The translations under genes were made by a program, and so were the position numbers. Below are positions 13,634 through 38,941 of a stretch of 42,994 bases of DNA, in pieces. The number at the start of each line of letters is the position of its first letter. The first letter of the stretch is position 1. The notes beneath the pieces were generated by a model. The model made no database searches. It was given only the letters and a program-made list of their open reading frames with translations, and had not been told where the DNA came from. Source of the stretch: Peptoniphilus ovalis (lineage in GTDB: Bacteria > Bacillota > Clostridia > Tissierellales > Peptoniphilaceae); contig NZ_JAHLQO010000007.1 in assembly GCF_018919265.1 (NCBI RefSeq), positions 1 through 42,994 on the forward strand, written 5' to 3'.

Positions 13634-13687
13634 AAACCCACTATAGCGACCAGCAAATTTCGCTTTTATAGTGGGTTTTATTTTGCA
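13634..13687. repeat. Palindromic dispersed element, copy 1
   Basis: AAACCCACTATA (13634-13645) and TATAGTGGGTTT (13667-13678) are perfect 12-bp inverted repeats; the stem extends through AGCGA/TCGCT. The right end continues TATTTTG as in the other two copies (14197 and 36868). It lies just after ntpD and can act as its terminator. Its inner sequence (GCGACCAGC...) differs from the ACGCTCACC of the other copies, and no duplicated hairpins flank it. Confidence 0.85.
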
Positions 13688-14162: not shown

Positions 14163-14184
14163 ACTTCAGGTTTATGCCTGAAGT
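14163..14184 (-). terminator. Left copy of a duplicated terminator hairpin
   Basis: ACTTCAGG (14163-14170) pairs perfectly with CCTGAAGT (14177-14184) around TTTATG. Upstream A residues give a T run on the minus strand, so this copy terminates the hotdog-protein transcript only after it has crossed the element. Confidence 0.7.
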
Positions 14185-14196
14185 GAGCCTGTATAC

Positions 14197-14369
14197 AAAC
14201 CCACTATAACGCTCACCGGATTTCGCTTTCGACTAATTCTAATTCTCTATTCGCTGAAAAACGCAAACTCGCTGTCGCTCAAACAGTGCGTTTTTCGGAC
14301 GCTTGTTTTCGAATTGAATTAGTACAGAAAGCTCAATATGGTTTGCTTTTTATAGTGGGTTTTATTTTG
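14197..14369. repeat. Palindromic dispersed element, copy 2, with nested insertion
   Basis: The ends are AAACCCACTATA (14197-14208) and TATAGTGGGTTT (14351-14362), the latter extended by TATTTTGT as in copy 3. After ACGCTCACCGGATTTCGCTTT an extra segment of about 120 nt interrupts what is a 20-21-nt loop in copies 1 and 3. The extra segment has its own hairpin: GAAAAACGCA (14256-14265) with TGCGTTTTTC (14287-14296), and outer arms ACTAATTC and GAATTAGT. Confidence 0.85.
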
Positions 14370-14380
14370 TCAACACGATG

Positions 14381-14410
14381 ACCTCAGATTTATGCCTGAA
14401 GTCTTTTTTC
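14381..14410 (+). terminator. Right copy of the duplicated terminator hairpin
   Basis: ACCTCAGA...CCTGAAGT (14381-14402) repeats the hairpin at 14163 with two changes in the left arm, both of which break pairs, and is followed by TTTTTT. It is placed to terminate the glyoxalase transcript. Confidence 0.65.
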
Positions 14411-24865: not shown

Positions 24866-25155
24866 TTGACAGTTAATTTTTTTAAAGTATAATAGTTTAT
24901 AAATAAAACATTGATTAGAAAGTAGTAGCTTAATTGATAATTTATAGAGAGCCAATGTTTGGTGGAAATTGGTAATTTATTTTAAGTGAATGGGTCTATG
25001 AGTGCGAGGCGAATTATAGTAGCTAAGACGGATTTCTCCCGTTATCGAGATAGGATATGTTAGTATCTGAAAAGAGATGCAAGATTTTTCTTGCAATAAG
25101 GATGGCACCGCAAATAATCCATTTGCTCCTTAATTGGAGTAAATGGATTTTTTTA
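24866..25155 (+). promoter_or_regulatory. Tryptophan T-box riboswitch with its promoter
   Basis: The promoter is TTGACA-16 nt-TATAAT (24866-24893). The leader has the stem I signature AGAGAGCC...TTTGGTGGAAATTGG (24946-24972) and the specifier context GTGAA-TGG-GTC with codon TGG at 24991-24993, a tryptophan codon. The antiterminator box AAGGATGGCACCGC is at 25098-25111. The variable base of TGGC is C, matching the G discriminator of bacterial tRNA-Trp. The terminator stem (25116-25129 with 25136-25149) is followed by seven T residues. Uncharged tRNA-Trp would bind and allow transcription of trpP. Confidence 0.95.
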
Positions 25156-34241: not shown

Positions 34242-35655
34242 ACCAGAATCTAAAATTGCAGAAGAGTTTATTAATCATGAGGAGATATTAGATACTCTAA
34301 AGTTTGCAAATGAGAATAAGAACAATAAATCTCTTTTACTCAAAACTTTAGAAAAAGCTAAAAAAGAAAAGGGTCTTAATCACAGAGAGGCTGCTCTTTT
34401 ACTTTTATCAGAAGATGACGAAATCAAAGAAGAATACAAAAAACTAGCTAAAAAAATAAAGGAAGATCATTATGGAAATAGAATTGTTTTATTTGCTCCA
34501 CTTTATCTTTCAAACTATTGTGTAAATGGATGTGTTTACTGTCCATATCACTATAAGAATAAAAATATTAGAAGAAAAAAGTTATCACAACAAGAAATCA
34601 AAGAAGAAGTTATAGCATTACAAGATATGGGACATAAGAGACTTGCAATTGAGCTTGGAGAAGATCCAATTAATAATCCTATTGAATATGTAATTGAATC
34701 TTTAAAAACCATTTACTCTATAAAACATGAAAATGGTCAAATCAGAAGAGTAAATGTAAATATTGCAGCCACAACTGTAGAAAATTATAAAAAATTAAAA
34801 GATGCTGAGATTGGAACTTATATATTGTTCCAAGAAACTTACAATAAAAAATCCTATGAGGAACTTCATCCAACAGGACCAAAGCATGATTATAATTATC
34901 ACACTGAAGCAATGGATAGAGCAATGGAAGCAGGCATTGATGATGTGGGCATAGGTGTATTATTTGGCCTTGAAACTTATAAATATGAATTAGTTGGACT
35001 TTTAATGCATGCTGAACACCTAGAAGCAAGATTTGGAGTAGGACCTCATACAATTTCTGTTCCAAGAATCCAACCAGCTGATGATATAGACCCTAATGAT
35101 TTTAAAAATTCTTTAGCAGATGATATATTTGAAGATATAATAGCATTAATTAGAGTTTCAGTTCCTTATACAGGAATGATTATTTCAACAAGAGAATCTC
35201 AAAAGGTTAGAGAAAAGGCATTGGAACTAGGAGTGAGTCAAATTTCCGGCGGATCAAGAACTTCTGTAGGTGGTTATGTTAGGGAAGAAAAAATAGAAGA
35301 AAACTCTGCTCAATTTGATGTTGCAGACCACAGAACATTGCAAGAAGTTGTGGATTGGCTAATGGAACTTGGATATATCCCAAGTTTTTGTACAGCTTGC
35401 TATAGAGCTGGCAGAACTGGAGATAGATTCATGCACTTCTGCAAGTCAGGCCAAATATTAAATTATTGTCAGCCAAACGCTTTAATGACTTTAAAGGAAT
35501 ATATGCTCGACTATGGCGATGATAAAACAAATAAACTTGGAGATAAATTAATAAGAGACGAACTTAAAAAAATACCTAAGGATAGAGTTCGCCAAGCTGC
35601 AACAAAATACATTGACGAAATGCAAAAAGAAGGAAAGAGAGACTTTAGATTTTAA
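34234..35655 (+). CDS. hydG: [FeFe]-hydrogenase maturase HydG (tyrosine lyase)
   Basis: Radical-SAM tyrosine lyase producing CO and cyanide ligands bound to iron, 473 aa. ATG 34234 gives the usual MYRPESKIAEEFINHEEI start, with GAAGGA 5 nt upstream; an ATG at 34180 inside hydE is rejected. The SAM cluster is C96-x3-C100-x2-C103 (CVNGCVYC). The C-terminal CxxC-x22-C motif that holds the second, dangler-iron cluster is intact (CTAC...NYC). This second motif separates HydG from ThiH. It overlaps hydE by 8 nt and hydF by 1 nt (TAATG). Confidence 0.96.
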   Translation: MYRPESKIAEEFINHEEILDTLKFANENKNNKSLLLKTLEKAKKEKGLNHREAALLLLSEDDEIKEEYKKLAKKIKEDHYGNRIVLFAPLYLSNYCVNGCVYCPYHYKNKNIRRKKLSQQEIKEEVIALQDMGHKRLAIELGEDPINNPIEYVIESLKTIYSIKHENGQIRRVNVNIAATTVENYKKLKDAEIGTYILFQETYNKKSYEELHPTGPKHDYNYHTEAMDRAMEAGIDDVGIGVLFGLETYKYELVGLLMHAEHLEARFGVGPHTISVPRIQPADDIDPNDFKNSLADDIFEDIIALIRVSVPYTGMIISTRESQKVREKALELGVSQISGGSRTSVGGYVREEKIEENSAQFDVADHRTLQEVVDWLMELGYIPSFCTACYRAGRTGDRFMHFCKSGQILNYCQPNALMTLKEYMLDYGDDKTNKLGDKLIRDELKKIPKDRVRQAATKYIDEMQKEGKRDFRF

Positions 35656-36830
35656 TGGAACTCAACAAGACAAATTCAGGAAGCAGAATACACATTGGCT
35701 TTTTTGGAAAAGTAAATGCTGGCAAATCTTCCCTAATAAATGCCTTTGCTGGGCGAGATATTTCTATAGTTTCTGAGATTGAAGGAACTACAACTGACCC
35801 AGTTTATAAATCAATGGAGATAAAATCTTTAGGACCATGTCTTTTAATGGATACTCCAGGAATTACTGACAACACTGAACTTGGAGAAGTTCGTTTAAAG
35901 AGGACTAGAGAAGTCATGGCAAAGACTGATATTGCAGTAATAGTAATATCAGATACGAATTTAAATGAGGAAAAGAAATTAATTGATGATTTAAAAGATA
36001 CACCTAAAATTATTGCAATTAATAAGATTGATAATTTAAATTCTACTGAAATAGTTAAAATAAAAAATGAATTTAATAATCTCCCGATAGTTGAAGTTTC
36101 AGCTAGAGAAAATATTGGAATTGATTTACTTTTAAGAGAATTATTGAAGTTTAGTCCTAAAATAGAAGAGAGACTTTTCGATGGGCTTGTGGAAGAAAAG
36201 GACTTAGTTCTTTTAGTTATTCCACAAGATATTGCAGCACCTAAAAATAGATTGATTCTTCCACAAGTTCAATCTATAAGAGAACTTTTAGATAGAGACT
36301 GTATTGTAATGATGGTAAAACTTGAAGAATTAGAAGATGCTTTAAATGTAATGAGTAAAAACCCAGATTTAATAGTTGCCGACTCATCTGTATTTCAAGA
36401 AGTGTTTGAAAAGAAACCAAAAGATACAGCTCTAACTTCATTTTCCGTTTTATTTGCAAAATTAAAGGGAGATATTAATTCTTATGTTGAAGGGACTAAA
36501 GCTTTTTCTAAATTAAAGGATAATTCTAAAATATTAATCGCTGAATGTTGTACTCATGCACCGGCGGAAGAAGATATTGGAAGAATAAAAATACCAAATT
36601 TAATTAGAAATAAACTAAATAAAAACATTAAAGTAGATGTATTAAGTGGATCCGCTTTTCCAGAAAATATTGAAGAATATGACCTTATTATACAATGCGG
36701 CGGATGCATGCTTAACTCTACTAATATTAGAAATAGAATAAAAACAGCTAATGGTAAAAATATTCCTATTACGAATTATGGAATAACAATAGCTTACTTT
36801 AAGAACATACTTGATAAAATAAAATACTAA
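35655..36830 (+). CDS. hydF: [FeFe]-hydrogenase maturation GTPase HydF
   Basis: Scaffold GTPase that receives the di-iron precursor and delivers it to the hydrogenase, 391 aa. The N-terminal G domain has Walker A GKVNAGKSS (residues 18-26), TTTDPV, DTPGITD and NKID. A central dimerisation domain follows, then the C-terminal iron-sulfur domain with ECCTHAPAEEDIGR and IQCGGC, whose Cys residues bind the [4Fe-4S] cluster. The start overlaps the hydG stop (TAATG). With hydE and hydG the maturation set is complete, predicting an [FeFe]-hydrogenase elsewhere in the genome. Confidence 0.96.
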   Translation: MELNKTNSGSRIHIGFFGKVNAGKSSLINAFAGRDISIVSEIEGTTTDPVYKSMEIKSLGPCLLMDTPGITDNTELGEVRLKRTREVMAKTDIAVIVISDTNLNEEKKLIDDLKDTPKIIAINKIDNLNSTEIVKIKNEFNNLPIVEVSARENIGIDLLLRELLKFSPKIEERLFDGLVEEKDLVLLVIPQDIAAPKNRLILPQVQSIRELLDRDCIVMMVKLEELEDALNVMSKNPDLIVADSSVFQEVFEKKPKDTALTSFSVLFAKLKGDINSYVEGTKAFSKLKDNSKILIAECCTHAPAEEDIGRIKIPNLIRNKLNKNIKVDVLSGSAFPENIEEYDLIIQCGGCMLNSTNIRNRIKTANGKNIPITNYGITIAYFKNILDKIKY

Positions 36831-36836
36831 AAAAAC

Positions 36837-36853
36837 CACTGATTGATTCAGTG
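36837..36853 (-). terminator. Left copy of a duplicated terminator hairpin
   Basis: CACTGA-TTGAT-TCAGTG, preceded by seven A (a T run on the minus strand), so it can end the nadK transcript. It is 15/17 identical to the hairpin at 36930-36946. Confidence 0.65.
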
Positions 36854-36867
36854 ATTATTTTGTAGAC

Positions 36868-36919
36868 AAACCCACTATAACGCTCACCAATTTTGATTTT
36901 ATAGTGGGTTTTATTTTGT
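36868..36919. repeat. Palindromic dispersed element, copy 3
   Basis: AAACCCACTATA (36868-36879) and TATAGTGGGTTT (36900-36911) with a 20-nt inner part beginning ACGCTCACC, then TATTTTGT. Both ends, and the outer GTA.AC before the left end, match copy 2. It lies between hydF and nadK, inside duplicated hairpins. Confidence 0.87.
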
Positions 36920-36929
36920 TAAATTTAGG

Positions 36930-36951
36930 TACTGATTTATTCAGTGTTTTT
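36930..36951 (+). terminator. Right copy of the duplicated terminator hairpin
   Basis: TACTGA-TTTAT-TCAGTG followed by five T; placed to end the hydF transcript after crossing the element. Confidence 0.65.
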
Positions 36952-36952
36952 A

Positions 36953-37756
36953 TTATAAAAACTTATCCTTTAAATTATCCCAATATGAATTATTTGAAAA
37001 AGATAATTTTTTAATCACTTTATTTGAAAGCCTAACATTAACTCTGTGGAGATTATTAAAGAAGTATTCTGATCCATCTACTAGAAGTAGGTTTGAATCT
37101 TTATATCTTTTTTCAATCACTAGAGAAATTGTATGAGAGCCTGGCACTACAACTGACTTAGTTAGTGATCTATAAGCTGATGAACTCACAGGAGATATAG
37201 GAGTCATCTGAAGTACGTGAATACTTGGGTAAATTATAGCACCACCTGATGACATATTGTAAGCAGTTGAACCCGAAGGTGTGCAAACTAAAATTCCATC
37301 GCCTGAAAATTTCTCCACATGATTTCTATCAATAAACACATTCATGTGAATTGTCTTTGAATGAGCAGCCTTTAGCACAACTTCATTTATTGAATACATT
37401 TTATAAGTTTTATTTTTAGTATAAATGTCCGATCTTATTAACTTAATATCATTTATCTTATAATTTTCGTTTTTATAATCTAATACAAATTTTTCAATTT
37501 CATCTGGCTTAATTTCTTGATAAAATCCAAGATGGCCAGTGTTAATTCCGACAAAGGGCATTTCTGGAAAATCATTTTTGTGAACTGCTTTTATAAAAGA
37601 TCCGTCTCCGCCTATACATATTGTAAGCTTTGCATTTTTATTAAATCCATTAAAAGGTTCAAAACCATTATTAGAAAGCTCCTTATGTAGAGTTGAAGCA
37701 GTTTTTTTCGATTCAAAGTTTGCATTAGAAAGTATATTAATTATTGGTCTAGACAA
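36953..37756 (-). CDS. nadK: NAD kinase
   Basis: Phosphorylates NAD to NADP in the cytoplasm, 267 aa. The start is TTG (37756), with GGGGGTG 4 nt upstream; there is no alternative ATG before the first strand. The ATP/NAD site GGDGSFIKAV holds the catalytic GGDG; NTGHLGFY, INEVVLKAA and SGDGILVCTPSGSTAYNMSSGGAI are the other family blocks. It is convergent with hydF and divergent from the RluA gene; its transcript must cross the palindromic element. Confidence 0.94.
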   Translation of the reverse strand: MSRPIINILSNANFESKKTASTLHKELSNNGFEPFNGFNKNAKLTICIGGDGSFIKAVHKNDFPEMPFVGINTGHLGFYQEIKPDEIEKFVLDYKNENYKINDIKLIRSDIYTKNKTYKMYSINEVVLKAAHSKTIHMNVFIDRNHVEKFSGDGILVCTPSGSTAYNMSSGGAIIYPSIHVLQMTPISPVSSSAYRSLTKSVVVPGSHTISLVIEKRYKDSNLLLVDGSEYFFNNLHRVNVRLSNKVIKKLSFSNNSYWDNLKDKFL

Positions 37757-38748: not shown

Positions 38749-38941
38749 AGTAAGTTCTGCGATGTTCGATTTTTGCTCTAGTTAATTCAACCGACAAAGA
38801 ACACACGGGAAGCTGTGTATATGCATGGGATGGCAAGCCCCCATTGAGGGGAAGTCAGAAGATGCAATCAAGTTTTTACCCACCATGAATAATGGGCGGG
38901 TGTGAATTAATAGAGTTACGGCATTGTGGACTTATTTTTTT
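38749..38941 (+). ncRNA. ssrS: 6S RNA
   Basis: About 193 nt, the usual 6S length. The ends carry the 6S signature: TTCTGCGATGTTCGATT near the 5' end and ACGGCATTGTGGACTT at the 3' end, as in E. coli (CTCTGAGATGTTCG... GCGGCATCTCGGAG). They form the closing stem. Between are CCCC-ATTGA-GGGG and ACCC.CCAT/ATGG.CGGGT stems and an unpaired central zone that mimics an open promoter. A T-rich tail ends it (38931-38941). 6S RNA binds the housekeeping RNA polymerase holoenzyme and lowers transcription in slow growth. The call is from motif and size; no covariance model was run. Confidence 0.85.

Follow-up and report, generated by a model that had tools for sequence, protein, structure and literature searches.

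A short element with IS1182-type ends between duplicated terminator-like hairpins in Peptoniphilus ovalis and its relatives

The palindromic element AAACCCACTATA...TATAGTGGGTTT, of which three copies occur in the window (the whole 42,994-nucleotide stretch of Peptoniphilus ovalis DNA analysed here, contig C7 of a host genome of 2.10 Mb in 14 contigs), is in all probability (about 0.93) a non-autonomous MITE of IS1182 group A, which uses a hairpin structure as its target and duplicates the whole hairpin by means of a transposase acting in trans. The element is short, multicopy, and devoid of a transposase gene, shares its ends with autonomous IS elements, and has empty sites in relatives. At these elements the entire palindrome is duplicated, symmetrically about its dyad and at sequences unrelated to one another, and is present only once at the empty sites. 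The analysis supports a previous sequence-only reading of the window as right on the anatomy and largely right on the process.

Structure of the element in the window

The region around copy 3, located between two convergent genes, is composed of the following features.

35655..36830, + strand: convergent gene left of copy 3
36837..36853, no strand: left hairpin copy of the duplicated host terminator, CACTGATTGATTCAGTG, with the A run on its left side
36854..36929, + strand: short-form MITE, copy 3, about 74-76 bp, with degenerate IS1182-type ends
36868..36911, no strand: core inverted repeat of copy 3, AAACCCACTATA...TATAGTGGGTTT, folding into a stem of about 13 bp
36930..36946, no strand: right hairpin copy of the duplicated host terminator, TACTGATTTATTCAGTG, with the T run on its right (36947-36951)
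36953..37756, - strand: convergent gene right of copy 3

The two hairpins flanking copy 3 are identical at 15 of 17 positions, and the A run on the left and the T run on the right are as the sequence-only reading had described them. The arms of the core lie at 36868-36879 (AAACCCACTATA) and 36900-36911 (TATAGTGGGTTT). The left end of the element, TATTTTGTAGACAAA, differs from the IS1182-type end at 4 of 15 positions, and the right end at 6 of 15. The earlier assignment of the left hairpin to the minus-strand gene and of the right hairpin to the plus-strand gene agrees with the A and T runs but is left undecided by the terminator scan, which called the left hairpin on both strands and the right one on neither. 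The minus-strand call has a T tail, and the tail of the plus-strand call, ATTATTTTGT, comes from the element itself; the right hairpin was missed because its G-C pairs are too few for the rule of the scan. In a fold of the plus-strand RNA, the two hairpin copies are able to pair with each other around the element.

The left gene resembles, as we assume, a HydF maturation GTPase, and the right gene is presumably an NAD kinase. Both are present in 11 of 13 congeners, relatives being 67-78% identical over the two genes. Because they are adjacent in none of these 11, the site of copy 3 (window 35655-37756) lies at or near a rearrangement, and no empty site for copy 3 was found among the orthologues of its two neighbours. 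The lack of such a site, together with the strong hairpin that the core palindrome forms when folded alone, would suit an explanation in which each flanking hairpin is the own terminator of a gene, the two being alike by convergence or through an older tandem duplication, and the palindrome is a third, immobile terminator. We regard this as highly improbable, since flanks match within copies and not between copies, related ends recur at many unrelated sites, and the empty sites of relatives contain one hairpin (see below).

The other two copies are located in a different part of the window.

13634..13678, + strand: short-form MITE core, copy 1
14163..14184, no strand: left copy of a duplicated terminator hairpin unrelated to that of copy 3, ACTTCAGGTTTATGCCTGAAGT
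14185..14380, + strand: long-form MITE of 196 bp (copy 2) whose interior contains nested hairpins
14381..14402, no strand: right copy of the terminator hairpin of copy 2, ACCTCAGATTTATGCCTGAAGT, followed by a T run

Copy 2 has the same arrangement around an unrelated hairpin, as had been read from the sequence, its two hairpin copies (ACTTCAGGTTTATGCCTGAAGT and ACCTCAGATTTATGCCTGAAGT) being identical at 20 of 22 positions. At copy 1 (13634-13678), neither flank alignment nor the strict tract test described below detected a duplicated flanking hairpin. No ORF of at least 90 aa is contained within the window copies of the element.

Copies in the host genome

At least one exact 12-mer arm was found at 14 host sites, 13 of which are two-armed (some arms with one mismatch) and comprise nine short copies with cores of 40-46 bp and four long copies with cores of 165-166 bp; a fifth long copy is located at C1:96444-96629. 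The host short copies measure 71-77 bp, except one to which the end-finder assigned 90 bp, and the long copies 196-198 bp. At C5:139425 (L069), a single arm adjoins one hairpin with no partner arm seen; this is probably a broken copy. According to the ORF table, eight of the 14 sites lie between convergent genes, five between co-directional genes, and one is unclear, with none between two gene starts.

The duplication of the flanks was examined by local alignment of the left and right 65-bp flanks of the 13 paired host copies. The summed score of own pairs was 347, compared with a permutation mean of 233 (sd 16), and none of 100,000 permutations scored as high. A strict tract test, requiring a tract adjoining the element ends with a score of at least 12, was applied to 14 host copies, the 13 paired ones and C1:96444; copy 3 and the five long ones passed it, six in all, versus 0 of 182 mismatched pairs. 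The eight copies that failed are all short, with duplicates degraded (visibly so at C1:66065, C2:202575, and C3:54545) or absent; at C1:222212, flank alignment and the strict test revealed no duplicated flank. Thus, flank duplication is strong for the long host copies and partial for the short ones, and the longer copies, which pass the strict test, are taken to be younger. The earlier expectation that most copies would have duplicated flanking hairpins was a near thing, with eight of 14 host copies failing the strict test and the long ones and copy 3 passing it.

The ends of the long host copies differ from IS1182-type ends at 0-5 of 15 positions, although over 24 bases their agreement with the corresponding IS ends is limited to 12-18 positions. 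The ends of the short copies, with 1-8 mismatches of 15, mostly 4-8 (one end excepted), show a weak likeness, including those of copy 3. No IS1182 transposase was found in the host genome with the NF033551 profile; PF13751, the first guess for the transposase, was rejected, being likewise absent from the host. The absence of a transposase source from the host assembly is consistent with the decayed ends and repeats of the short copies. For none of the host's own copies was an empty site found.

A short-form covariance model detected the nine short copies and C1:210497 in the host genome, and three weak matches, in two congeners, among the best 150 candidates per genome of the 13 congeners. The exact 12-mer occurs once or twice in 24 of 60 relatives, about as often as a reversed control pattern. 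The exact two-arm pattern gave ten matches in named public genomes (Bacteroidota, a planctomycete, and others), which were judged to be chance. The long form had no match in plasmid and phage sequences.

Related MITEs in other genomes of the family

A search of 130 genomes of the family with the long form, in which no more than a few candidates were scored in each genome, matched at least 34 other genomes, 33 of them in the interior; the interior of copy 2 itself is thus matched in at least 33 other genomes of the 130. Many of the relatives' elements, 179-199 bp in length, have ends TCAGACTGTTGACAAAGTA... and ...GGGTTTGTCTACGCTCTGA and lie between duplicated hairpins that are mutually unrelated. 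We tested 47 relative loci (29 best matches and 18 further listed ones chosen before their flanks were seen), 23 of which have both ends within 4 mismatches of 15. Among these 23, a tract score of at least 12 was obtained for 17, versus one of 506 mismatched pairs. The 24 loci left out lack one end or both at the threshold, are partially masked (L124), or are palindromic repeats sharing only the interior; four of them (L124, L133, L218, and L221) have duplicated hairpins by eye or in earlier alignments.

Two side observations were made on these loci. At L234, the two hairpin copies are mutually reverse complement (CTGTAGATTACTACAG and CTGTAGTAATCTACAG), as though an inversion of one of them had taken place. 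In addition, the interior of the long MITE (window 14236-14320) is also found within palindromic repeats with other ends (L136, L139, L140, L144, L146, and L147), at which duplicated hairpins were not detected.

In the long host copies, as in the relatives' MITEs, both ends are IS1182-like and show the asymmetry of the IS, namely GACAAAGTA or a close sequence on one side and GGGTTTGTC on the other. This asymmetry bears on whether a transposase of another family moved the MITE, the likeness to IS1182 ends being coincidental. IS1634 and IS5 types make long or palindromic duplications, and a host genome without an IS1182 transposase partner and with degenerate short-copy ends would be compatible with such an origin. 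Nevertheless, it is very unlikely in view of the asymmetric ends and of a duplication signature that is the same as that of the IS1182 elements themselves, to which we now turn.

Autonomous IS1182 elements with similar ends

The IS1182 transposase model NF033551 matched 50 of the 130 family genomes, 22 of them above its cut-off. Relatives carry intact IS with ends like those of the MITE (CAGACTGTWGACAAA), measuring about 1.53-1.60 kb among the NF033551 matches, and two such copies free of inner stops occur in G012, a genome from the same genus as the host. These elements are here called group A; groups A and B (see below) are defined by ends and transposase identity, and the small unrooted tree has no bearing on group A as a clade. 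Transposases within group A are 45-74% identical, one of them was found to contain the domains DUF772 and DDE_Tnp_1_6, and relatives on plasmids are annotated as IS1182 family transposase. The partner IS therefore has the DDE transposase with the domains of the IS1182 family.

We examined 44 IS loci (39 and 5 more) and located both ends in 38 (36 and 2). Direct repeats of 14-30 bp flank 34 of the 38, 33 perfect and one with a mismatch, whereas mismatched IS flank pairs gave a repeat in 0 of 1260 cases. The dyad lies at the repeat centre (offset 0 in 32 of 34, -1 in two), and symmetric pairing of at least 0.7 is observed in 31 of 34 repeats, compared with 0.2% of random sequences. What is repeated is a hairpin resembling a terminator, and the repeat is as long as that hairpin. 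Most repeats start with A (30/34) and end with T (28/34), and the targets have an A-rich left flank in 28 and a T-rich right flank in 27 of the 34 cases. Taken with the A run, hairpin, and T run seen directly at copies 2 and 3, these base preferences suggest that the target of both IS and MITE has the form of an intrinsic terminator, i.e., a hairpin with an A run before and a T run after it.

Of the four loci with both ends but no repeat, three (L149, L158, and L193) have a complete hairpin at each end, the two hairpins being different, which suggests recombination between IS copies or later rearrangement; at L189, just one of the two sides has a hairpin. Four loci (L150, L152, L155, and L160) entered the set after repeats had already been seen in them. 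A subset of 29 multicopy-group loci, unselected for repeats, consists of 10 of the 11 listed copies in G029 and all listed full-length group-A copies of G028, G130, G076, and G012; ends were located in 27 of these loci and a repeat in 25. By eye, a hairpin is present on both sides of L186, whose right end was unlocated, and not of L183.

Group-A copies that are 99-100% identical within one genome each have a different hairpin, duplicated on both sides. A repeat of this kind also flanks all six plasmid IS that were fetched from 45 matched records (Enterococcus, Acetoanaerobium, Lactococcus, Sutcliffiella, Listeria, and Staphylococcus); the duplication in the Lactococcus plasmid was found by the end-anchored test and missed by direct alignment. 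The proposal that the structure and not the sequence of the terminator is the target is accordingly borne out by the unrelated hairpins that related MITEs and IS1182-type elements duplicate.

Empty sites in relatives

The IS insertion in the Listeria plasmid pLIS32 matched 20 other plasmid records, 19 of which (H12-H30) contain both flanks without the IS. Three of the 19 were read. Plasmids pLM5578 and pLIS40 have one hairpin and are identical to the predicted empty site at 600 of 600 and 599 of 600 bases, respectively; pLIS14 also has one hairpin, but one of its sides has diverged (347/600).

Two MITE loci, G070 C1 near 917 kb and G083 C1 near 1138 kb, were compared within their genus, which is not that of the host. 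At both loci, G094 and G095 lack the element and have a single hairpin flanked by an A run and a T run, with 283 of 318 to 303 of 324 bases identical (89-94%). A single, shorter hairpin is also seen in two further orthologues that can be aligned over the whole gap, G096 at the first locus and G069 at the second. The element is present in G083 at the first locus, and it seems to be present in G071 and G069 as well, with additional DNA within it; the remaining orthologues have diverged too far or could be aligned on just one side. No hairpin-free empty site was found among the four close MITE orthologues compared.

Thus, the single hairpin that the sequence-only reading expected at empty sites is present at two MITE loci and one IS locus, all in relatives, and related MITEs and IS1182-type elements do insert into bidirectional terminators and duplicate the hairpin. 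The mobility that it had put forward as an inference is supported by presence and absence at orthologous sites in relatives, so that one set of this bacterial family's palindromic intergenic repeats is shown to be mobile.

A second IS1182 group with a different outcome

A contrasting set is provided by group B, whose transposases (518-519 aa) are 20-25% identical to those of group A, and whose ends are GGGGCTGTTGCAAAAG and CTGCAACATCACC. Fifteen copies were analysed (L162, L164, and L205-L217), comprising all eight listed intact copies in G003, three of six in G079, and four of six in G072. A repeat of at least 14 bp was found at none of the 15, and 13 of the 15 have an A-rich octamer on one side and a T-rich octamer on the other, compared with 1.2% of random flank position pairs. 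No hairpin accompanies these A and T runs. Group B thus seems to replace the terminator hairpin, as reported for IS1272. An inverted repeat of at least 3 bp was also observed right at the junction in nine of the 15 copies.

The apparent replacement by group B, and the report that IS1272 of the same family deletes its target stem-loop, would both lend themselves to an IS1272-like insertion of the present element as well, with the original hairpin replaced and the flanking hairpins either acquired later or belonging to the element. This is scarcely credible for group A, where near-identical (99-100%) copies have a different duplicated hairpin at each site and the empty sites keep the hairpin once. 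Loss of the stem-loop without duplication, which characterises IS1272-type elements, does not describe group A, with its repeat in 34 of 38 cases.

Proposed mechanism of hairpin duplication

In the reading that we prefer, a group-A transposase would act in trans on the MITE and respond to the structure of the palindrome, which would probably be an extruded cruciform. The element would be joined through its 3' ends at the 5' foot of each hairpin arm, so that gap repair would then copy the whole hairpin, and the stagger would be set by the target hairpin and not by a fixed spacing. The predicted outcome is the order A run, hairpin, element, hairpin, and T run, in which each convergent neighbour should keep a working terminator. 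Judging from this order of parts, both neighbouring genes probably retain their stop signal, and the element may do little harm to the host, as the earlier reading had supposed. This would explain how elements of this kind might spread between convergent genes while leaving termination intact.

We lean toward the broader view that group A represents DDE transposases with a duplication of variable length, in which the stagger would arise from a hairpin cut at both feet and the neighbours would be spared, and that a second IS1182 group, also found in this bacterial family, has the opposite polarity, the hairpin being removed.

Comparison with known systems

Reviews give direct repeats for IS1182 that reach some tens of bp in length, and curated entries may already include repeats of this kind. 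In a literature search that was thin on subscription papers and made without ISfinder, we found no published whole-hairpin duplication by the IS1182 family and no terminator-duplicating MITE.

The closest system is IS1272/TnSha1 of Staphylococcus, which bears the same family name and, in the available parts of two accounts, targets terminator hairpins by structure and not by sequence (PMC4923244, PMC5678879). According to the same parts, IS1272 deletes or replaces the stem-loop, both accounts stating that there is no target duplication, whereas group A and the MITE described here duplicate the stem-loop whole (PMC4923244, PMC5678879). In the accessible text of Wan et al. 2017, pathway a is the deletion observed for IS1272, and duplication is drawn in Figure 13 as the hypothetical pathway b, to which the route proposed here corresponds (PMC5678879). 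The present elements provide natural evidence, with empty sites, for this outcome that was earlier only drawn, the whole stem-loop being duplicated and its size setting the length of the duplication.

ISCbo5, an ISBma2-like member of the IS1182 family in Clostridium botulinum group III, is similar in that hairpins at gene ends serve as insertion sites; all its sites but one are described as hairpin-forming inverted repeats at gene ends, interpreted as transcription stop signals (PMC3098183). As far as the available portion of that paper goes, one hairpin surrounding the IS is described and not two complete copies, and MITEs are not mentioned (PMC3098183). The MITEs of 160 and 169 bp in Methanosarcina acetivorans likewise have an IS1182-family parent, ISMac2, but their direct repeats, in the excerpt available, are 4 and 0 bp and not a hairpin (PMC3852290). 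Partial texts on two other IS1182 members give 4-bp repeats (PMC3281130, PMC3196728), and another, available in part, reports that the convergent gene-IS-gene arrangement is over-represented for IS1182 among other families (PMC9208149). Judged by these partly accessible sources, IS1182 elements are already known to target terminators or hairpins, and a target-site duplication that is the terminator itself is apparently new. Two groups of one family with apparently opposite outcomes, the hairpin being copied in one and removed in the other, make the structural basis of target choice testable.

Other features of the window

Apart from the element and its flanking genes, the window contains a T-box leader (24902-25133) and a 6S RNA (38751-38936), both above the Rfam gathering score.
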